DNA from: a virus
IMG/VR virus record: IMGVR_UViG_3300025674_005699
Location: 1-24,787 of that record
DNA: 24,787 bases
Reading direction: 5' to 3' (one strand)
The position numbers and the translations under genes are program-made. Shown piece after piece: positions 7,744-24,787 of the stretch (position 1 is the first letter of the stretch; each line of letters opens with the position of its first letter). Under the pieces are notes generated by a model. The model saw only the letters and a list, made by a program, of their open reading frames with translations, was not told the origin of the DNA and searched no databases.

Positions 7744-8508
7744 ATGCGAACTTATAGAGTAGTTACATCACAACACGAACCGTACTACAATCAAATCGGA
7801 AAAGATTGTATTACTAGTTTTTTAGAATATTGGCCTGAAAATATTTCAATAGAATTATGGGCTGAAGGATTTACACCTGATATTGATAATCCTAGATTGG
7901 TTGTAAAAGATTTCGAAAAGGTTCGCAATGACTTAGATAAATTTTTAGAATTAATATATCCACATGTACCTCATGATCCTAACGGAAAAGATTTATTTTC
8001 TAGATATAAATTTAGTTGGATTAAAGGCCATGTAATTACAGCAGCATTACAAGAATGTGAACAGGATGTTTTTATATGGTTAGATAGTGATGTAATTACT
8101 AATAAAAAAATACCTTTAGAGTTTATAGAAAACTTATTACCGGAAGACACACTCTCTGTTGATATTCCAGCAGGCGGCAAAGTAAAAGGAAAAGAAGCAG
8201 AAACTGGATTTTTTATGCTTAATATGAAAGATAAAAATATACAACATGTTATTGACTTTTACAAATTGTGTCATAATTCCCTACAAATATTAAAAGTAAG
8301 TAGGAGACTAGATACAGGTGTATGGTGGACTGCTATACATACTGCCGAAAAGAAAGGCTCTAAATTAAAACATCTTGCAACAGCAGTTGATAGTATTGTA
8401 CCTTTTATGCACACAGAATTAAAAGAATATTTAAGACACTGGGTAACGAAAGCTAACAAGAGTAACTATCAAAAAGGTAAAGAAGTTACCATAGAGGAGA
8501 AATTATGA
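7744..8508 (+). CDS. DxD glycosyltransferase, GT-A-like (family paralogue 1)
   Basis: This is probably a nucleotide-sugar-dependent glycosyltransferase. FIWLDSDVIT (about residues 110-119) contains the metal-binding DxD motif. ETGFFMLN (153-160) is the acceptor-side motif shared with three other proteins in this window (starts at 14825, 15664 and 21514). The N-terminus begins with a short strand and a loop, RVVTSQHEPYYNQIGKDCITSF, as in the paralogues (which read TTFHREGLEKYGQRF or TTMNQEYYDLCGKRM). There is no membrane segment, so it is cytoplasmic. TAAGGA (7733-7738) supports the ATG. Its stop overlaps the next start as ATGA. Sugar donor and acceptor are unknown. Confidence 0.8.
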   Translation: MRTYRVVTSQHEPYYNQIGKDCITSFLEYWPENISIELWAEGFTPDIDNPRLVVKDFEKVRNDLDKFLELIYPHVPHDPNGKDLFSRYKFSWIKGHVITAALQECEQDVFIWLDSDVITNKKIPLEFIENLLPEDTLSVDIPAGGKVKGKEAETGFFMLNMKDKNIQHVIDFYKLCHNSLQILKVSRRLDTGVWWTAIHTAEKKGSKLKHLATAVDSIVPFMHTELKEYLRHWVTKANKSNYQKGKEVTIEEKL

Positions 8509-9809
8509 AAACAGTAGCATTTGTACCTGCAAAAGGAACTAGTGAAAGAATTGAAAATAAAAATTTACAAGTATTAGACGGAGAATATCTGTTTAAGCGT
8601 AAATTGAGACAGTTATTAGAATGTGAAGAAATAGACGAAGTTTGGCTAGACAGCGAAAGTGAAGAATTGCATAGATTAGCAAGAGACTTACCTATTAAAC
8701 ATCACTATAGAGATCCTAACCTAGCAAACAACAAAACCGACGGACATGCAATGTTTGCTAATGAATCTAGAGTTACAGATGCAGACATAGTGGTGCAAGT
8801 ATTATGTACAGCACCGTTTATAGACAAATCTGTGATTGATCCTGCACTAAGAGATCTAAAGAAAAGTCCTACTACAAGTTTAGTTGCTGTATCTGAGCAA
8901 AAATTATACTTATGGGACGATCACAAACCTGCATATGGCAATAGTATTCCTAATAGTGTAGATTTGCCAAATCACATCATCGAAGCAATGAGTTTTTATG
9001 CTGTAAAAACAAATGGTCAGCCTGTTGAAAAACGTTATACAGATAATGTTATGTTATGGCCTGTTACACCTTTACAATTAGTAGATATCAACAATCAAGA
9101 AGATCTTGTATTTGCAAGGGATATTTGTGCAGGACAAAGAGCAAAAAAAGTACAACAACTTAAAATGTTAAGTAAAAGTATTAGTAGTTGTTTGTTAAGT
9201 GATATTTGCAAAGAAAACGGTATTGATCATTTTTTAAGCAGTGAAATAAAATCTATGAACAACGGTACATTTTTAGGATATGCAAAAACTCTAAAACTAA
9301 AAGAATTACCACAAGATCAAAAAGACCCTGCATTACCACATTGGGAAGGCATATTTGATGCATTAGGAAGTTATGAATTTGTTGCACCGGGTGATGTAAT
9401 TATAGTTTCTACAGATGTAAAAGACAAAGCATACTTTGGTGATTTAAATGCACATTTTGCATATAGAAGCGGAGCAGTGGGTGTTGTTGTAGATGGACCA
9501 ACACGTGATGTAGATAGAGTTACACAAATTGGTTTACCATTATTTGCACATACTAGAATGCCTGACGATATTAGATACGAAGGTACACTTGAAGAAATGA
9601 ATATGCCAGTAACTGTTAACGGTGTAAGAGTACGCAACAATGATATTATTTTTGGTGATCCTGACGGTGTTGTGTGCATACCAGCAGAAAAATGGCAGTT
9701 TGTTTTTGAAGAAGTAAAAGCAGCACTCAAAAAAGAAATGCTTGTAAAATTTGAAGCAACCTTTGGCTCAGATCCTTTTGATGTACTAAACAATGTCGGA
9801 CTCTTTTAA
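8505..9809 (+). CDS. Fusion: CMP-sugar synthetase-like domain + RraA/HMG-aldolase-like domain
   Basis: Residues 1 to about 215 resemble acylneuraminate/CMP-ulosonate cytidylyltransferases. The nucleotide-binding loop VPAKGTSERIENKN (7-20) corresponds to the NeuA-type motif with conserved Arg, Lys and Asn, followed later by VQVLCTAPFID (97-107). Residues from about 222 onward resemble the RraA / 4-hydroxy-4-methyl-2-oxoglutarate aldolase family: PGDVIIV (295-301), FGDLNAHFAYRSGAVGVVVDGPTRD (311-335) and GDPDGVVCIP (384-393). The Arg334-Asp335 pair, needed for catalysis in true HMG/CHA aldolases, is kept. The fusion could couple a pyruvate-type aldol reaction on a 2-keto sugar acid with its CMP activation, which is inference. 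GAGGAG (8494-8499) precedes the ATG, which overlaps the previous stop (ATGA). Confidence 0.85.
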   Translation: MKTVAFVPAKGTSERIENKNLQVLDGEYLFKRKLRQLLECEEIDEVWLDSESEELHRLARDLPIKHHYRDPNLANNKTDGHAMFANESRVTDADIVVQVLCTAPFIDKSVIDPALRDLKKSPTTSLVAVSEQKLYLWDDHKPAYGNSIPNSVDLPNHIIEAMSFYAVKTNGQPVEKRYTDNVMLWPVTPLQLVDINNQEDLVFARDICAGQRAKKVQQLKMLSKSISSCLLSDICKENGIDHFLSSEIKSMNNGTFLGYAKTLKLKELPQDQKDPALPHWEGIFDALGSYEFVAPGDVIIVSTDVKDKAYFGDLNAHFAYRSGAVGVVVDGPTRDVDRVTQIGLPLFAHTRMPDDIRYEGTLEEMNMPVTVNGVRVRNNDIIFGDPDGVVCIPAEKWQFVFEEVKAALKKEMLVKFEATFGSDPFDVLNNVGLF

Positions 9810-10551
9810 TACCTATATCATAAACTATAATATGCCAGAGCATACGGATAAAATATATCGTATGCTTTGTAGATCAATGTTAGAAGAAGATATCTATATA
9901 CTAGATAACGGTTCTGACAAAGAACCCATGCATCCTAAAACTAGAATTCCATTACCAACAAATAGGAAAGTAAGCGGCGCTTATAGAGTAATTTTTGATA
10001 GAGAAATAATTCAAAAAAAATCTTTCTTTGTTACTATTACTACTAGTGCAACATTATTAAAACAAAACTATAAAAAAACTATTGTAAAAACTACAAAATC
10101 TTTAAAGAAAGAAAAATGGAGTGCAATATATTCTAAAATAGAAAATGTTGATGGTTGGGTAGATGTTGCTATACCTGAACAAATAGGAGTTGATAATTTT
10201 ATTAAAAATCCTATGTTTGCTCAGCCTATACTTACAATATGGAATACAAAATATATCAGCGAACTAAAAAGAAAAAAACATGGCTGGTATGATGTTGCAT
10301 ATCACCACGGACAAGGTGCAACTGAAGATATGCGTATGTACAATTTAAATACAGGATGGGATGAATTTACTACGCCATTGTTAAGTATAGATTGGTATAG
10401 AAATAGTACATTTAGAGAAGGCAGAGGAGAACATTCTCAGAGAGAATATTTTAAGCATAATAAACAAGAATTTAATGCTAGATTCAAAGAAAAATTTAAC
10501 ATGACACATCACCAAGTAAATGATTTTTTAAGTAAAAATAGGCGTAAATAA
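9793..10551 (+). CDS. GT2-like glycosyltransferase or related protein
   Basis: The N-terminus TYIINYNMPEHTDKIYRML followed by IYILDNGSDKEP resembles the opening strand and the acidic nucleotide-binding strand (LDNGSD) of family 2 glycosyltransferases. The middle has a Lys-rich helix (about 93-110). GWYDVAYHHGQGATEDMRMY (about 174-193) gives a possible acidic site (TED). The usual DxD is not obvious, so the activity is less certain than for its neighbours. The 252-residue protein is soluble. The gene overlaps the preceding one by 17 bases and has no clear ribosome site, so expression probably depends on coupling. Confidence 0.55.
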   Translation: MSDSFNTYIINYNMPEHTDKIYRMLCRSMLEEDIYILDNGSDKEPMHPKTRIPLPTNRKVSGAYRVIFDREIIQKKSFFVTITTSATLLKQNYKKTIVKTTKSLKKEKWSAIYSKIENVDGWVDVAIPEQIGVDNFIKNPMFAQPILTIWNTKYISELKRKKHGWYDVAYHHGQGATEDMRMYNLNTGWDEFTTPLLSIDWYRNSTFREGRGEHSQREYFKHNKQEFNARFKEKFNMTHHQVNDFLSKNRRK

Positions 10552-11719: not shown

Positions 11720-12490
11720 ATGGAAAAAATTGTATTAGTAACAGGTGGGTTTGATCCACTTCACTCAGGTCATATTGATTATATGAAATCAGCAAAAGAA
11801 CTTGGTGACAAGTTATTTGTCGGAATCAACAGTGACGAATGGTTAACACGAAAAAAAGGAAGACCATTTATGCCGTTTACAGAACGTGCAGCCATTATTG
11901 AAAATCTTAATTTTGTAGATAGAATTGTTGCGTTTGACGATAGTGATAATAGTGCCTGTGGAGCAATTTTTAAAACTATGTCAACAACTGGAAAGACTAA
12001 AATTATATTTGCAAATGGTGGAGATAGAGACAGTGCTACAAACACACCAGAATATAAAACATTTGGCGATCATGCAGATGTAGAATTTGTTTGGGGTGTC
12101 GGCGGTACAGACAAGAAAAATTCAAGCAGTTGGATACTTAGTAATTGGGATAAACCTATAACAAAACGTGCTTGGGGAGAATACAAAGTATTAGACCGAA
12201 ACGGAGAATGGCAAGTCAAAGAACTTACATTTTACCAAGGCAAAGCGTTAAGTGATCAAAGACACTTTAAACGTAGTGAACACTGGCATGTTGTAGACGG
12301 TGTTATCAATATGTTTTTAGAAGATAAACAAGGTAAAAGAACTAGCACACTGTTAACACCAGGTGATAGTATTGATATACCTGTCGGCTGGTGGCATAAG
12401 GCAGTAAACATAGATAACAAAGACGCTAAAGTAATCGAAGTGTGGATGGGTAAAGAATTATCAGAAGACGATATTGAAAGAAGAGATTAA
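11720..12490 (+). CDS. Fusion: RfaE/TagD-type nucleotidyltransferase + phosphomannose-isomerase-type cupin
   Basis: Residues 1 to about 143 form a cytidylyltransferase-like domain. GGFDPLHSGHIDY (9-21) carries the HxGH motif, GINSDEW (35-41) and RPFMPFTERAAII (48-60) follow, and KNSSSWIL (133-140) fits the SSS-type nucleotide loop. The closest known domain is the C-terminal half of HldE/RfaE (ADP-heptose) or glycerol-phosphate cytidylyltransferase. Residues 148 to 256 match the C-terminal cupin of type II phosphomannose isomerase/GDP-mannose pyrophosphorylase: RAWGEYKVLD (150-159), RSEHWHVVDG (185-194), LTPGDSIDIPVGWWHKAVN (212-230) and a final SEDDIERRD. Candidate metal ligands are His182, Glu187 and His226. 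It may pair sugar isomerisation with nucleotide activation. No ribosome site is seen; a late-promoter box abuts the ATG. Confidence 0.85.
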   Translation: MEKIVLVTGGFDPLHSGHIDYMKSAKELGDKLFVGINSDEWLTRKKGRPFMPFTERAAIIENLNFVDRIVAFDDSDNSACGAIFKTMSTTGKTKIIFANGGDRDSATNTPEYKTFGDHADVEFVWGVGGTDKKNSSSWILSNWDKPITKRAWGEYKVLDRNGEWQVKELTFYQGKALSDQRHFKRSEHWHVVDGVINMFLEDKQGKRTSTLLTPGDSIDIPVGWWHKAVNIDNKDAKVIEVWMGKELSEDDIERRD

Positions 12491-13173: not shown

Positions 13174-13927
13174 AAATAAAACTGATCAATTTATTAATTT
13201 ATTTGCAAAAGGATCTGGATTAGAAATTGTAACATCGCCCGGAATAAAAGGTGATATTATATTTAGATCTATGGCAAAAAGAAAATTAATAAAAGAATGT
13301 TGGAAAACAGGTAGACAGTTTTATTATATGGACAGCGGATATATAGGAAATTATAAATCTCCAGGCAATCCATTAGGTTGGAAAGTTTGGCACAGAATTG
13401 TAAAAAATGATTTACAGCACAATCACATTATAGATCGACCAGATGATAGATGGCTTAGATTAGGACAAGAAATACATAAACCTAAAAAAGGCAAACATAT
13501 ATTGTTAGTAACACCTAGTGAAAAACCTTGTAAGTTTTACGGCATAGATAGAGACAATTGGGTCAAGGAAACAGTAGAAAAAATCAAACAATACACAGAT
13601 AGACCTATAGTGATTAGAGACAAAGCATCTAGACCAGAACGTATTGTAAAAACAATATATGATGATTTAAATAACTGCCACGCATTAGTAACCTATCAAA
13701 GTATAGCAGCAGTAGAAAGTGTGTTATATGGAGTACCTGCATTTACTCTAGCACCAACAGCAGCAGATGTTGTATGTGATCAAGACTTGAGTTTGTTAGA
13801 AAATCCTACAATGCAAGAAGAAGAAAAGATATATAAATGGGCATGTCACTTAGCCTACGGACAATTTCATACAGAAGAACTTAAAAGTGGCAAAGCATAT
13901 AGGATGTTGTTAAATGAAAAAAGTTAG
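13157..13927 (+). CDS. Capsule/Kdo-transferase-like protein (three-member family, copy 1)
   Basis: GKHILLVTPSEKPCKFYG (112-129), YTDRPIVIRDKASRPERI (146-163) and HALVTYQSIAAVESVLYGVPAFTL (175-198) recall the Rossmann-like C-terminal half of GT-B capsule polysaccharide enzymes. In those, a HTDRPI(V/I)xR strand is followed by a Ser-rich loop and GVPAF. The proteins at 13914 and 16562 share these blocks. This copy is the shortest (256 residues). It has IRDKAS where the others have R(G/P)HP, so it may differ in substrate or activity. The start lies 17 bases inside the previous gene, without a strong ribosome site. The 3' end overlaps the next gene by 14 bases. Confidence 0.65.
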   Translation: MICLSKNKTDQFINLFAKGSGLEIVTSPGIKGDIIFRSMAKRKLIKECWKTGRQFYYMDSGYIGNYKSPGNPLGWKVWHRIVKNDLQHNHIIDRPDDRWLRLGQEIHKPKKGKHILLVTPSEKPCKFYGIDRDNWVKETVEKIKQYTDRPIVIRDKASRPERIVKTIYDDLNNCHALVTYQSIAAVESVLYGVPAFTLAPTAADVVCDQDLSLLENPTMQEEEKIYKWACHLAYGQFHTEELKSGKAYRMLLNEKS

Positions 13928-14828
13928 AGTTTATTACGCAGGTATCCCGCCGAGAAATAAGAACCAAGAAAAAGTAAAAGTACTTGACAATTTTCACGAA
14001 GGTGTTCCTGTGCCCTGGAGTGAACAAGTTCATACTAAACACTGGCAGCCTTCCGATCTTGCTGTAATACAAGGATGGGTACATCCTGGAAGTCAGCGTA
14101 CACCGCATCTACAATTTAGACGTCTTATAATAGACAATCAAAAAGCAATAGGCAAACACACACTTGCAATTGATAGTAATCTTTTTCTTTATAGAGATCC
14201 AGGCAATACAAAGACTTATTTAAGATTTAGTTTAAATGATATATTTCCAAATACAGGTGTATATTTCGATAATAATCCGGATCCTGAGCGATGGCTACAA
14301 ATACAAAGAGATTTAAATATTGGATTAAAACCTTGGCGCAAAACTGGTAAACATATTCTTATTTGTATGCAACGTAATGGCGGCTGGAGTATGGGAGGAC
14401 AAGATGCTAATAAATGGCTAATGGCAACTATACACCAAATAAGGCAACATACTGATAGACAAATTATTGTAAGAGGACATCCTGGAGATAAGAAAAACAC
14501 AAAATGGCAAAAAATAAATATTCCTGGTGTAAAAATAAGTAACCAAGCAAGCATACTTGCAGACTTTTATAAATGTTGGGCAGTAGTAACATACAACAGT
14601 TCTCCTGGTGTAGCAGCAGCAATTGACGGAATTCCTGTGTTTGTAACAGACCCGTCACCTAATAAAAGTCAAGCATTTAAAGTTGCAAATTTTGATATTA
14701 GTAAAATAGAATATCCTTTGATGCCTGTGAGAGAACAATGGATTGAAAAAATTGCAATGAGTCATTATAATTTTGATGATTTAAAATCAGGTAAAGCGTG
14801 GTCGGTAATGAAGGATTATATAAAATGA
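13914..14828 (+). CDS. Capsule/Kdo-transferase-like protein (three-member family, copy 2)
   Basis: The 304-residue protein has two halves. The N-terminal half has IPPRNKNQEKVKVL and SDLAVIQGWVHPG (47-59). The C-terminal half has LKPWRKTGKHILICMQR (138-154), QHTDRQIIVRGHPGD (178-192), CWAVVTYNSSPGVAAAIDGIPVFVTDP (221-247) and EYPLMP (266-271). These blocks line up with the protein at 16562 and, less well, with that at 13157. The RGHP segment and the Ser-Ser-Pro-Gly loop with GIPVFV resemble GT-B capsule and Kdo transferase domains. This is fold-level similarity by eye. It overlaps the gene before by 14 bases and the one after as ATGA. Confidence 0.7.
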   Translation: MKKVRVYYAGIPPRNKNQEKVKVLDNFHEGVPVPWSEQVHTKHWQPSDLAVIQGWVHPGSQRTPHLQFRRLIIDNQKAIGKHTLAIDSNLFLYRDPGNTKTYLRFSLNDIFPNTGVYFDNNPDPERWLQIQRDLNIGLKPWRKTGKHILICMQRNGGWSMGGQDANKWLMATIHQIRQHTDRQIIVRGHPGDKKNTKWQKINIPGVKISNQASILADFYKCWAVVTYNSSPGVAAAIDGIPVFVTDPSPNKSQAFKVANFDISKIEYPLMPVREQWIEKIAMSHYNFDDLKSGKAWSVMKDYIK

Positions 14829-15664
14829 ATATTAGCGTAGTAACAACATTTCATCGAGAAGGTTTAGAAAAATATGGCCAACGATTTATTACTTCGTTTG
14901 AAGACAATGTAGATAAAAAAATTAAAATGTATGTATATGCAGAAGATTGCAATCCTATTGTCAAAGATACTGACCAAATTATAGTTTTAGATGCAAAACA
15001 AGTTTTACCAAAACTAAACAAGTTTAAAGAAACTTGGGGGAATGTTCCTAAAGCAAATGGCAAATGTCCATGGCCGGAAAGACGTCCTAGAGATCATCAT
15101 AAAGAATTTAAATGGGATGCTGTAAGATTTGCTAACAAAGTATATGCAGTATTTGACGCAGCAGAACGTTGTACTGACTGGTGTGTATGGATGGATGCAG
15201 ATACATATGTGCATAGTCCGTGGTCATATGAACAATTTAAAGAACTGTTGCCTGATGATAAATGGATGACATATGTAGGCCGCGGTAAAAAAGCAGCAAC
15301 ATGGCCAGAGTGTGGGTTTTATGGTTTGAATCTAAACAACAAAGTTGCTATAGAATTTTTACGTCAATTTGAGCATGTTTACGAAAATGCAGAAACAGGT
15401 ATATTCCAAATGGACGAATGGCATGACAGTTATGTGTTTGGAATAATACTAAACAGGATTAAAATAGATCATCCCGATGTTTATGATTATACTGAAGGAT
15501 TTATGATGAAAACTGCACATACAGGAGGTGGCGGCCATCCTCTAATTAACACAGAACTAGGACGTTGGATAGACCATATGAAAGGCGCAAGAAAGAATAC
15601 TGGAAAAAGTTTATCTAAAGACTTGATAGAAAAACGACAAGAAGCATACTGGGGAGCAATATAA
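14825..15664 (+). CDS. DxD glycosyltransferase, GT-A-like (family paralogue 2)
   Basis: It begins MNISVVTTFHREGLEKYGQRF, matching the N-terminal block of the paralogues. CVWMDADTYVH (120-130) carries the DxD metal site, and ECGFYGLNL (162-170) the shared second motif. EFKWDAVRFANKVYAVFDA (94-112) is the helix that precedes DxD in all four copies. A GGGGHP loop near 235-241 is unique to this copy. The protein is soluble, 279 residues. The reading frame could be extended to a GTG at 14798, but the ATG at 14825 overlaps the previous stop (ATGA) and matches the paralogues, so it is preferred. It ends with TAATG overlap to the next gene. Confidence 0.82.
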   Translation: MNISVVTTFHREGLEKYGQRFITSFEDNVDKKIKMYVYAEDCNPIVKDTDQIIVLDAKQVLPKLNKFKETWGNVPKANGKCPWPERRPRDHHKEFKWDAVRFANKVYAVFDAAERCTDWCVWMDADTYVHSPWSYEQFKELLPDDKWMTYVGRGKKAATWPECGFYGLNLNNKVAIEFLRQFEHVYENAETGIFQMDEWHDSYVFGIILNRIKIDHPDVYDYTEGFMMKTAHTGGGGHPLINTELGRWIDHMKGARKNTGKSLSKDLIEKRQEAYWGAI

Positions 15665-16575
15665 TGGCACACCAATGGCAACCAAATACAACTTACGATA
15701 AAGGTGTAGTTGTAAAATATGAAGAAGTAGTATATGTATGTAGAGAAGGACATGTATCTCTTAATACATTTGAAAAGAAAAGATGGATAAAACATATTGT
15801 AAATGAACTTGTACAAAATAGACGTGGAGGTGCTAAACGTTTTACTGCAATAAGTAGTATGGATCATAAGTATTTTAACAAATACGGAAGATACTTTTTA
15901 AAAAGTGTAATCCATAATCTTAACAAAGGAATACGTTTTGAATTGTATAATGAAGCTTTTCGTCCTAAACTTAAATCTAGAATTAGATTAAGAGGCTTTG
16001 ACTTAGGAGAAGAATATAATAAGTTTCAAGAACGCTGGTGGCCTGTAAATAAAAAAGTTGCAACATTTGCAAAAAAAGGTTTTACTATTATTGATGCAAT
16101 GGAAAACATTGATTGTGATAGACTAATTTGGTTAGATGCAGACTTAATTATCAATGCACCTATACACCCTCAATTGTTAGATTTACTTTCAGACGACAGA
16201 TATCTAAGCACTCACTTAGGCGTAGTGCATAATGTAGAAGGCAAAAGATGGTTTAGTTGTGAAACAGGATTTTTTATTCTAAATAAAAATCATAAACAAT
16301 TCAACGATTTTAAGGAAACATATAAAAACATCTACTACAATGACGATCATAAAGATATCCGTAGATTTTATGACGGAGAAGTTTATGGTAAAACTGTAGA
16401 AATAATGCAAGCCGCAGGAGCAGAAATGCTAGATTTAAATCCTGAACATGTACACAAAACATGTATGCCTAGAAGTGTTTTAGACCCTTATATGAAACAT
16501 TACAAAGCGGGATTAAAAGACGAAATAGATTACGGCCAAATAGCAAGGAAACTAGGACCAGATGGCCCTATTTAA
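15664..16575 (+). CDS. DxD glycosyltransferase with an N-terminal CBM5/12-like module (family paralogue 3)
   Basis: Residues 1-41 read like the short carbohydrate-binding repeat (CBM5/12-like) often found in phage tail fibres. The pattern is WQPNTTYDKG, VVVKY, VVYVCREGHVS and a closing KKRW, with the expected Trp, Tyr, Cys, His and Trp. From about residue 58 the protein is the glycosyltransferase family seen at 7744, 14825 and 21514: RFTAISSMDHKYFNKYGRYF (59-78), LIWLDADLIIN (154-164) and ETGFFILN (200-207). The module could hold the enzyme on its acceptor glycan or on a virion part. It is 303 residues, without signal or membrane segments. Both ends overlap neighbours (TAATG at the start, 14 bases at the end). 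Confidence 0.82.
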   Translation: MAHQWQPNTTYDKGVVVKYEEVVYVCREGHVSLNTFEKKRWIKHIVNELVQNRRGGAKRFTAISSMDHKYFNKYGRYFLKSVIHNLNKGIRFELYNEAFRPKLKSRIRLRGFDLGEEYNKFQERWWPVNKKVATFAKKGFTIIDAMENIDCDRLIWLDADLIINAPIHPQLLDLLSDDRYLSTHLGVVHNVEGKRWFSCETGFFILNKNHKQFNDFKETYKNIYYNDDHKDIRRFYDGEVYGKTVEIMQAAGAEMLDLNPEHVHKTCMPRSVLDPYMKHYKAGLKDEIDYGQIARKLGPDGPI

Positions 16576-20104: not shown

Positions 20105-20611
20105 ATGAGAATATTAACACTTGAAAACACAGCGTTTTCTTTAAATAAAGTTCCAGAAACAATTGACGAAGATATAAGATTTTCTATATTAGATAATAGT
20201 AATCCTAAAGAACCAGATTTCTTTTTTAATCCTTTGATTTTTTTAGAATCGTTTAATAGTCCAGCAGTTGTTTTAGAAATAAATGGAAACGAAATAACTA
20301 TGCCTCTTGATTGGTGTTTAGCAGTAGGATGTAGTCAAGCAGGTAGCGATTTAGAAGTATTGCCGTTAACAAGTCTAAACGAAAGAGGATTTGAAGCATT
20401 TCTTTTTAATCCATTAACAAGCACACATCCGCAGTTTGGTACTGTAGAAATAACAAATTTTTACAACGATGTAAAATGGTATTTTCCTAAAATGAGGAAT
20501 GGTCATTTACTAAGTATACCAATACAAGAAAAAGAAAATAGTCTTTGTGCATTTTTTGTAAAAGACGTTAATAGACAAAGTGAGATAATAGATTTTGGAA
20601 AACTACTATGA
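20105..20611 (+). CDS. Conserved-looking hypothetical protein after uvsW (168 residues)
   Basis: The function is unknown. The strand-rich protein has VLEINGNEITMPLDWCLAVG (56-75), LEVLPLTSLNERGFEAFLFNPL (83-104) and VKWYFPKMRNGHLLSIPI (123-140), ending CAFFVKDVNRQSEIIDFG. I recall similar PLTS...RGF..F.FNPL and DVKWYFPK strings in unannotated proteins of marine T4-like phages, but this cannot be checked here. There is no signal or membrane segment. The gene starts directly after the uvsW stop and ends in an ATGA overlap, so it belongs to the same operon. Confidence 0.78.
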   Translation: MRILTLENTAFSLNKVPETIDEDIRFSILDNSNPKEPDFFFNPLIFLESFNSPAVVLEINGNEITMPLDWCLAVGCSQAGSDLEVLPLTSLNERGFEAFLFNPLTSTHPQFGTVEITNFYNDVKWYFPKMRNGHLLSIPIQEKENSLCAFFVKDVNRQSEIIDFGKLL

Positions 20612-21189
20612 ATAATTTATGGAGACATTTAGATTTACCGTTTGAAATAAAACCGCCAACTGAGTTATTGAATATTCATTATGACTATCCGTTTAATGTA
20701 GCAGATGTTACAGAATTATGTGGATACACAAATGATGAAGTACAAGATTTTATTAGATCTTTGGATCCAGACTTGACACTTGATCTTATTGAAGGTTTTT
20801 ACACACCTCCTGGAGGCAGTATTCCTGTACACAACGACGGAGATATTTTGTGTAAAATGAATCAAAGTTTTGGTGAAGATGGTGGTATTCTTCGTTGGTG
20901 GAAAGCAAGTGAAATTTTTAAAAAACAACCTACAGTATCAGATGATCAAAGACAGTACGAAGGCGATGCTATTGATTATGCAGATAGAGACAACTGTACA
21001 TTTTTAGATCAAGTAAACACAAATCAACCAACACTAATCAATACCAATGTATTACACGATACATACAATCCACCAGATGCACCAGGAAGATGGACACTAT
21101 GTTTCAAGCCATTAATAAACTTGCAACCAATTACTTGGGATCAAGGAATAGAACTATTCAAAGACTACATAATAGGAGAAGCAACATGA
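20608..21189 (+). CDS. 2-oxoglutarate/Fe(II) oxygenase-like protein
   Basis: PPGGSIPVHNDGD (67-79) provides a His-x-Asp pair. PTLINTNVLHDTYNPPDAPGRWTLCFKP near residues 144-171 provides a distal His and a following Arg. That is the His-x-Asp...His...Arg layout of the double-stranded beta-helix oxygenases that hydroxylate proteins, sugars or lipids. Such enzymes are common in marine T4-like phages. The substrate is unknown. Fold assignment rests on these motifs by eye, and a cupin-like non-enzymatic fold is an alternative. It overlaps its neighbours at both ends (ATGA). Confidence 0.65.
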   Translation: MNNLWRHLDLPFEIKPPTELLNIHYDYPFNVADVTELCGYTNDEVQDFIRSLDPDLTLDLIEGFYTPPGGSIPVHNDGDILCKMNQSFGEDGGILRWWKASEIFKKQPTVSDDQRQYEGDAIDYADRDNCTFLDQVNTNQPTLINTNVLHDTYNPPDAPGRWTLCFKPLINLQPITWDQGIELFKDYIIGEAT

Positions 21190-21530
21190 AAGCAGGAAAG
21201 ATTTGGGGACAGACTGAACTCATCCACGCAAACGGTGTGCTAGAGTTTCACCGCATAGAATTCAAAGGTGGCTACAAGTGTAGCGAACACGAACACAGAT
21301 TTAAATGGAATGGCTTCTTTGTAGAGTCAGGCAAAATGCTTGTACGTGTTTGGCAAAAGGATTATGATCTAGTTGACGAAACTATTTTAGGTCCGGGAGA
21401 TTTTACACAAGTAAAGCCAGGTGTTATTCATCAGTTTGAAGGATTAGAGGACGGTGTAGCATTTGAGTTGTATTGGGCAGAATTTAACCACAACGATATT
21501 GTGAGACGTTCAGTTGGTACGCAAGTATAA
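21186..21530 (+). CDS. Single-domain cupin protein (114 residues)
   Basis: Cupin motif 1 is GGYKCSEHEHRFKWNGFFVESG, here from about residue 27 to 48, with His/Glu metal ligands. Motif 2 is LGPGDFTQVKPGVIHQFEG, about 71-89, with the terminal His. Small cupins in sugar clusters act as epimerases, isomerases or binding proteins, and the exact role is open. The reading frame extends upstream to 21090, but the ATG at 21186 overlaps the preceding stop (ATGA) and begins right before the domain, so it is the likely start. Confidence 0.8.
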   Translation: MKAGKIWGQTELIHANGVLEFHRIEFKGGYKCSEHEHRFKWNGFFVESGKMLVRVWQKDYDLVDETILGPGDFTQVKPGVIHQFEGLEDGVAFELYWAEFNHNDIVRRSVGTQV

Positions 21531-23908: not shown

Positions 23909-24179
23909 ACCAAAAAATAAAGACCTAGCAGGAGAAGCACTAATATATGAAAGAGCTGGAGGTGTAGTTTATGCTAGGTTTAGAGACGAACCTAAAAAAA
24001 GCATATATCCAGGTAGATGGATTATAGGCGGTGATGCAGAAGGTGTTGCAAAAGCACAAGGATATCTAGGATACGACAGTTGGCGAGAACTGTTTGCTTT
24101 AGCAGATACACATCCTACACTGCGGAAACAACTTGACAAAACACTAAATCTCTATTATATTATAAAGGATGGAGACTAA
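23901..24179 (+). CDS. Small hypothetical protein (92 residues) upstream of kdsA
   Basis: The function is unknown. GGVVYARFRDEPKK, PGRWIIGGDAEGVAKAQGYLGYDSW and HPTLRKQLDKTLNLYYIIKDGD are the most distinctive segments. The aromatic and Gly-rich composition suggests a small folded domain. I recall like-patterned small proteins in marine phages, which I cannot verify. The ATG at 23901 is preferred over the GTG three bases before. The gene overlaps the preceding one by eight bases and ends one base before kdsA, so it is part of the same operon. Confidence 0.7.
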   Translation: MLRPKNKDLAGEALIYERAGGVVYARFRDEPKKSIYPGRWIIGGDAEGVAKAQGYLGYDSWRELFALADTHPTLRKQLDKTLNLYYIIKDGD

Positions 24180-24180
24180 C

Positions 24181-24787
24181 ATGAGAATTATTGCAGGACC
24201 GTGTCAACACGAAACACTAGAACAAAGTTTAGAGATTGCATCGGAGTGCAAACGTGTATGTGACTTGTTTGACATTGAATATATTTTTAAAGCAAGTTTT
24301 GACAAAGCAAATAGAACAAGCATAGCAGGCAAACGTGGAGTAGGAATGCCTGCAACTATGCAAGACTTTATTGATATTAAAGAAAAAATAAATGTTAAAA
24401 CATTAACAGACGTACATGATGTTATGCAGATAAAAGCAATATGTAATCAATTCAATTATGCAATCGACGTGTTACAGATTCCTGCATTTTTGTGTAGACA
24501 AACAGATTTAATTCAAGCAGCATGTAAAACAAATAAAATTGTAAATATCAAAAAAGGGCAATTCTTGGCACCTTGGGATGTTAAAGGTATACTAAGTAAA
24601 ACTGAAGGTGCTAGAGAAGTTTGGATAACCGAAAGGGGTACTAGTTTTGGGTATAATACTTTGGTCACTGATTTTACTGGCATCCAGTATATGCGTGACA
24701 ATTTTTCTGTTCCTGTGGTATTTGACGTCACACACTCAGTCCAGAAGCCAGGAGGCCAAGGTGACAGTAGTGGTGGGAATAGGGATT
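24181..24787 (+). CDS. kdsA: 3-deoxy-8-phosphooctulonate synthase (Kdo-8-P synthase), 3' partial
   Basis: KdsA joins phosphoenolpyruvate and arabinose-5-phosphate to make Kdo-8-phosphate, the committed step toward the Kdo of LPS and some capsules. The frame is open to the window end (202 codons of about 265-280). Hallmarks are IAGPCQHE (4-11), FKASFDKANRTS (36-47), LTDVHDV (95-101), VLQIPAFLCRQTDL (117-130), NIKKGQFLAPWD (142-153), TERGTSFGYN (170-179) and VVFDVTHSVQKPGGQGD (about 190-206, running to the window edge). Cys8 in AGPC marks the metal-dependent class; the metal-independent E. coli type has Asn there. His at about 196 fits a second metal ligand. GGAG (24171-24174) lies six bases before the ATG. 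Confidence 0.95.
   Translation, partial: MRIIAGPCQHETLEQSLEIASECKRVCDLFDIEYIFKASFDKANRTSIAGKRGVGMPATMQDFIDIKEKINVKTLTDVHDVMQIKAICNQFNYAIDVLQIPAFLCRQTDLIQAACKTNKIVNIKKGQFLAPWDVKGILSKTEGAREVWITERGTSFGYNTLVTDFTGIQYMRDNFSVPVVFDVTHSVQKPGGQGDSSGGNRD

Follow-up and report, generated by a model that had tools for sequence, protein, structure and literature searches.

A phage-encoded fusion of a NeuA-type CMP-sugar synthetase and an RraA/HMG-CHA-aldolase-type domain, a probable bifunctional enzyme of a CMP-ulosonate branch

The surfaces of many bacteria are capped by sialic-acid-like sugars; by altering these, phages gain or block infection. The CMP-nonulosonate synthetases NeuA and CMAS, which activate such sugars, are represented by the structures 9t4z (PpNeuA, CMP-Kdn), 6ifd (V. 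cholerae), 1eyr (N. meningitidis) and 1qwj (mouse); their known fusion partners are an esterase or a HAD domain. The second group of proteins relevant here is formed by the HMG/CHA aldolase of P. putida (3noj) and the RraA-like proteins 3k4i and 5x15, which have a common fold, a metal-binding Glu and a class II pyruvate-enolate site. D-X20-R-D is the motif by which HMG/CHA-RraA-type aldolases are described. In the P. putida enzyme R123 stabilises the pyruvate enolate, and D124 and E199 are metal ligands (PMC5065237). FlDet, a 2-keto-3-deoxy-hexarate dehydratase/decarboxylase, is an RraA-family enzyme that acts on a 2-keto-3-deoxy sugar acid (PMC8563752). Aldolase and CMP activation have been paired in a one-pot system consisting of sialic acid aldolase and CMP-sialic acid synthetase (PMC10795189). 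Searches of the open paper library turned up no paper that mentions RraA alongside nonulosonic acids, or alongside a cytidylyltransferase and a fusion.

The gene described here joins members of the first two groups in one chain. It is found in a 24.8-kb virus record, the whole of which is called the window below. The window carries a terminase large subunit, a single-strand DNA-binding protein, a UvsX-like recombinase and a DNA helicase, i.e. it belongs to a T4-like phage. Sugar genes are numerous in it. The fused gene begins with an ATG at 8505 and ends with a stop codon at 9807-9809. The main genes are:

7744..8508, plus strand: glycosyltransferase-like gene, 254 aa, upstream of the fused gene; its stop overlaps the start of the fused gene (ATGA)
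8505..9809, plus strand: fused gene, 434 aa; NeuA-type CMP-sugar synthetase at about residues 1-212, RraA/HMG-CHA-aldolase-type domain at about 226-434
9793..10551, plus strand: downstream gene, 252 aa, overlapping the 3' end of the fused gene
21090..21530, plus strand: cupin protein

A relative of this cupin immediately follows the fused gene in the viral contig L161, and in sister phages one immediately precedes kdsA. Another cupin, of the mannose-6-phosphate-isomerase type, is fused to a nucleotidyltransferase of the heptose-phosphate adenylyltransferase type at 11720-12490 of the window.

The first-pass annotation had proposed that a CMP-sugar synthetase is fused to an RraA/HMG-aldolase domain at 8505-9809. 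Both domains are recognized by Pfam above the curated cut-offs: CTP_transf_3 (PF02348) at residues 5-126 (E 5.6e-17) and RraA-like (PF03737) at residues 229-390 (E 8.4e-27). PHROGs gave nothing useful for the protein. A structure model calculated with close relatives only as input had a pLDDT of 71, and of less than 50 in the RraA core; it was superseded by a model for which divergent fusions were added (pLDDT 91.7). A long helix (residues 198-223) connects the two halves.

The fusion is intact in more than 30 viral contigs (34-100% identity) and in three bacterial genomes. Full-length relatives of roughly 64-100% identity occur in about 30 viral contigs, with contigs of 236, 256 and 167 kb among them, and four more divergent viral lineages (L131/L132, L133, L160 and L161) have the fusion at 34-41%. 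A Pelagibacteraceae single-cell genome encodes it at 60% identity, and the bacterial genomes G441 and G814 also encode it in full length. Among bacteria the fusion is rare. With the query genome G005 counted each time, it was found in one of the 397 genomes of the Pelagibacteraceae genome's family sample; the class sample had three carriers among 385 genomes (G005, G441, G667), and the phylum sample two among 399 (G005, G814). The copy in G667 (L098, 9168-10352), the fourth bacterial one, is truncated by an early stop at a T run; the gene is possibly a pseudogene, or else the stop results from a sequencing error. The fusion is absent from annotated phage records, in which only an RraA-like protein matched, at 29% identity, and from annotated plasmids, in which single domains only were found. 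Within clade 1, the window's relatives, dN/dS is 0.06-0.10 for the N-terminal half and 0.04-0.09 for the C-terminal half; both halves are under purifying selection. An assembly artefact was ruled out by these low values and by the full-length fusion in many independent assemblies and in bacterial genomes.

The N-terminal domain has the fold of the cytidylyltransferases of the NeuA/KdsB superfamily and is nearer to NeuA by both profile and Foldseek comparison. Its features are:

8505..9140, plus strand: predicted N-terminal CMP-ulosonate (NeuA-type) synthetase domain, from PF02348, profile matches and Foldseek
8523..8564, plus strand: nucleotide-binding loop VPAKGTSERIENKN, residues 7-20; K10, S13, R15, K19 and N20 are invariant in alignment A6
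8796..8819, plus strand: QVLCTAPF block, residues 98-105; its Gln precedes the position of N. meningitidis NeuA Gln104 by two residues
9084..9092, plus strand: metal motif D194-I-N196; D194 (NeuA Asp209) is invariant, and position 196 (NeuA Asp211) is N or D

A profile search of solved structures placed PpNeuA, labelled a CMP-Kdn synthetase by the depositors of its structure, at 2.5e-30 and murine CMAS at 2e-24; these two and the V. cholerae and N. meningitidis NeuAs rank on top, with KdsBs far behind. The domain model matches 9t4z with a TMt of 0.81, compared to 0.60-0.66 for KdsB. Curated kdsB models reach only 19-48 bits on the fused protein, far below their cut-offs of 155-281. The nucleotide loop retains the conserved S, R/K and KN, and its first basic residue is Lys, whereas solved NeuAs have Arg. 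In NeuA, Asp209 and Asp211 are the metal ligands and Gln104 belongs to the substrate site. The window and most fused relatives have Asn at position 196; L033-L037 and L161 have Asp. Thus the domain is like NeuA/CMAS in its fold, its nucleotide loop, the Asp209 equivalent and the NeuB and GT29 genes found in its company, but it is only about 15-20% identical to these enzymes, has Asn or Asp at the Asp211 position, carries the Gln104 equivalent two residues away, and is fused to RraA. Because its profile and fold are NeuA-like while position 196 varies and the substrate-site Gln is shifted, the domain appears to be a NeuA-type enzyme with a specificity of its own.

The C-terminal domain can be compared residue by residue with HMG/CHA aldolase:

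9180..9806, plus strand: C-terminal RraA-like domain (PF03737; Foldseek 3k4i, TMt 0.81-0.84)
9438..9443, plus strand: G312-D313, corresponding to aldolase G101-D102; Glu instead of Asp in many relatives
9504..9509, plus strand: R334-D335, corresponding to aldolase R123-D124; together with D313 they form D-X20-R-D
9735..9737, plus strand: E411, corresponding to the aldolase metal ligand E199; present in every complete relative, fused or split

RraA-like proteins are the best Foldseek matches, and 3noj is matched with a TMt of 0.67 (E 7.6e-14). In the alignment to 3noj, D102, R123, D124 and E199 correspond to D313, R334, D335 and E411. The two signatures of a class II pyruvate aldolase, D-X20-R-D and the metal-binding Glu of the C-terminal helix, are therefore both present, and D/E-X20-R-D plus the Glu is found in each complete relative examined, whether fused or unfused, even where identity falls to about 28%. 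The key motifs that had been noticed in both halves, VPAKGTSERIENKN and R334-D335, thus hold, and the structure comparison that had been called for bears out a resemblance to NeuA-type enzymes over KdsB and to RraA/HMG-CHA aldolase, with the aldolase catalytic residues in place.

The domain also differs from HMG/CHA aldolase. At the positions aligned with the phosphate-activation pocket of the P. putida enzyme (R40, H75, K147 and R195) its residues differ, as read by hand from the alignment. With this pocket not conserved, the acceptor side, i.e. the second half of the substrate, is predicted to differ, and the reaction may be one other than aldol cleavage. Furthermore, the domain is fused to NeuA, and its genetic company consists of CMP-sugar genes, not of genes for aromatic catabolism. 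Equivalog models for RraA, the RNase E regulator that binds RNase E/RhlB, score far below cut-off on the fused protein (40 versus 136 bits and 20 versus 241). FlDet, likened here by its description, offers an RraA-family precedent for action on a 2-keto-3-deoxy sugar acid, but it is a catabolic, stand-alone enzyme with a different reaction.

RraA, which PMC5065237 mentions, belongs to a family whose proteins assemble into rings and of which certain members work through binding to other proteins. The C-terminal domain could thus be catalytically silent or structural, promoting oligomerisation, like the HAD domain of vertebrate CMP-sialic acid synthetase, and the Asp/Glu variation at position 313 would agree with this. 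Such a role is nonetheless unlikely: none of the complete relatives departs from R334, D335, E411 and an acid at 313, dN/dS of the C-terminal half is as low as given above, and the same clusters also contain separate RraA genes, for which tethering cannot be the point.

These separate genes are the main new evidence for a link to ulosonates. All 36 RraA homologues found in viral contigs are either fused to, or clustered with, a NeuA-type gene, a figure to be read with the RraA-linked set having been found partly by RraA similarity and many contigs being fragments. Two kinds of unfused cluster can be distinguished. The first, RraA-NeuB-NeuA, occurs in the phage contigs L134, L135 and L136 and in the Pelagibacteraceae genome G105. 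The second, present in the phage L137 and in the alphaproteobacterium G781, consists of an Rpe-like protein, a DAHP synthase, a NeuA with a C-terminal KdsC-type phosphatase, and RraA. Its coordinates are:

L137, 2794-6507: four-gene cassette of the second kind
L099, 8677-12515: four-gene cassette of the second kind

The cassette follows the logic of the Kdo pathway KdsD-KdsA-KdsC-KdsB, with a pentose-phosphate enzyme that has a CBS region (in G781 this region of the Rpe-like protein matches KdsD/KpsF), a PEP synthase, a KdsC-like phosphatase and a CMP synthetase. It differs in using an Rpe-type epimerase for the SIS isomerase, DAHP synthase for KdsA and NeuA for KdsB, and in the addition of RraA. 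The cassette appears undescribed, and the product to be expected from it is a CMP-activated sugar of the heptulosonate type.

L137 is a sister of the window's phage, and its cassette sits exactly at the position of the fusion. The flanking proteins on both sides are 91%, 81%, 89% and 68% identical; the 89% belongs to the 254-aa glycosyltransferase-like gene, on the same side of the cassette, and the 68% to the 252-aa downstream gene on the other side. The NeuA and RraA of the cassette are only 32% and 28% identical to the respective halves of the fused protein. We read this as a putative swap of equivalent cassettes.

The phylogenetic trees are in agreement. The NeuA tree places 16 fused and six cluster-linked NeuAs in one clade (94/91), apart from 25 unlinked NeuAs, for which no RraA was detected nearby within a check that spanned about 1.5-kb flanks for most bacterial loci. 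Fused NeuAs form a single clade (98/90, starred). In the RraA tree the fused domains are likewise one clade (84/89), sister to the RraA of the second kind of cluster (95/86, starred). One origin of the fusion fits these topologies, probably from a neighbourhood like that of the second kind. The RraA of the first kind is placed elsewhere, so RraA seems to have entered ulosonate clusters at least twice. In both trees the Pelagibacteraceae copy is nested among the phage sequences, a position that suggests exchange of the gene between phage and host.

Genes for ulosonate handling recur around these proteins. A gene of the GT29 sialyltransferase family directly precedes the fused gene in L131/L132 and adjoins the RraA gene in the L134 cluster, and on annotated plasmids, relatives of the N-terminal domain have a NeuB gene (E. 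coli) or a GT29 gene (Paracoccus) nearby. Recurrence of NeuB, DAHP synthase/KdsC and GT29 in the clusters, and of NeuB or GT29 beside the plasmid relatives, argues against the proposal that the N-terminal domain activates a non-ulosonic substrate while the RraA half processes an unrelated keto acid. The proposal draws on the displaced substrate-site Gln, on the frequent Asn at the Asp211 position and on the many distant NeuA-like relatives in clusters of no assigned product, and is considered improbable.

Several other loci of the survey deserve mention. On the mobilizable E. coli plasmid p2-S1-ZIM-01-A (L103, 5995-8905) a "hypothetical" NeuA-like gene is followed by inositol monophosphatase and NeuB. 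In a Pelagibacteraceae genome (L056, 542-1492) a pyruvate-kinase-like gene, identified by eye, is directly upstream of a NeuA-like gene. The phage contig L036 (IMG/VR 3300031519_000139) encodes at 14796-15983 a protein of the RuBisCO large-chain family (PF00016, E 2.1e-36), possibly RuBisCO-like, next to a sugar nucleotidyltransferase. The T4-like phage contig L042 encodes, as judged by eye, a porin-like protein and a tripartite-transporter-like receptor (13649-14587 and 20387-21259). MptE-like (PF01973) scores were below cut-off on neighbours in L036, L042, L133 and L162, and a Maf-type transferase beside the fusion is a lead only.

The window also contains a Kdo gene, as had been reported:

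24169..24786, plus strand: kdsA (Kdo-8-phosphate synthase), truncated where the contig ends; matched by KDO8P synthase models at E 1.2e-81 and 1.1e-77

Its presence had made Kdo-like sugars an attractive guess, and among the larger contigs checked in the window's clade only the 33-kb fragment G787 is without kdsA. The guess does not hold up well. In sister phages kdsB directly follows kdsA, 15 kb from the fusion, so that these phages own a separate kdsA-kdsB pair; the N-terminal domain is NeuA-like, with KdsB profiles and folds scoring lower; and fused relatives in phages outside the clade occur without kdsA. Kdo is probably not the sugar, and activation of Kdo or a Kdo analogue derived from the phage's kdsA is highly improbable.

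The distribution of synthases bears on the task of the RraA domain. An ulosonate synthase (NeuB or DAHP/Kdo8P synthase) is present in four of the four viral contigs with unfused RraA. The larger contigs of the window's clade have kdsA and no NeuB, and neither NeuB nor DAHP/Kdo8P synthase is present in the five fused viral contigs outside that clade, two of which measure 160 kb and 118 kb. Contigs may be incomplete, so these absences carry little weight. Two of the three bacterial fusion genomes checked (G005 and G441) have NeuB elsewhere. This pattern might indicate a self-contained enzyme, in which the RraA domain would condense pyruvate with an aldose, CMP activation and PPi release would pull the aldol step, and a PEP-dependent synthase would be dispensable. 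The coupling of aldolase and CMP synthetase does make CMP-sialic acids in vitro (PMC10795189). That system, like the fusion, pairs a reversible pyruvate aldolase with CMP activation, but its enzymes are separate, and its aldolase, NanA, is an unrelated one of the Schiff-base type. The self-contained enzyme is a possible but doubtful reading: the host could supply the acid, as NeuB in G005 and G441 illustrates, and the window's own clade carries kdsA. Furthermore, a PEP-dependent synthase is present wherever RraA is unfused; therefore RraA is not simply the synthase and would have another role there. To our knowledge, RraA-type aldolases work on small acids and not on sugars of 7-9 carbons. Rather unlikely, too, is the broader proposal of a phage-spread single chain that converts pyruvate, an aldose and CTP to a CMP-ulosonate by an RraA-type metal aldolase without a PEP-dependent synthase, together with a broader CMP-ulosonate pathway, so far undescribed, in which RraA performs one step and which would probably extend to CMP-heptulosonate made through DAHP synthase.

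The fused protein is instead probably a bifunctional enzyme of a CMP-ulosonate branch, an ulosonate being a sialic-acid-like 2-keto-3-deoxy sugar acid. That both halves serve one such pathway is the best supported reading of the sequence comparisons, because of the domains, their kept catalytic residues, the linkage to ulosonate synthases and the common ancestry. The NeuA-type domain would convert the ulosonate with CTP and Mg2+ to CMP-ulosonate and PPi. The RraA-type domain would be a class II (Mg/Mn) pyruvate-enolate enzyme with the free ulosonic acid, or the compound immediately preceding it, as substrate. Its likeliest reaction would be reversible C3-C4 aldol chemistry, with supply or clearance of the keto acid coupled to activation. 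Condensation driven by CMP activation, retro-aldol control of the pool and other enolate chemistry, e.g. dehydration, remain as candidate roles. We infer the direction of the aldolase step, the activity of both halves and the ulosonate as their common metabolite; Asn196, the displaced NeuA Gln and the altered HMG/CHA phosphate pocket count against the bifunctional reading. The original idea, a single polypeptide that both handles a 2-keto-deoxy sugar acid and couples it to CMP, is well supported as a pathway assignment by the split operons, the cassette swap and the shared clades.

With the CMP-ulosonate, the phage or its bacterial host would modify a glycan that is phage-directed or lies on a surface. 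If RraA is a regular partner of CMP-ulosonate genes, this would assign a function to RraA proteins that are now named by similarity only, and would provide a ready-made aldolase-synthetase fusion for CMP-sugar production. It would also mean that the synthesis of surface glycans includes a step not recognised so far and may involve a new sugar, a CMP-heptulosonate.
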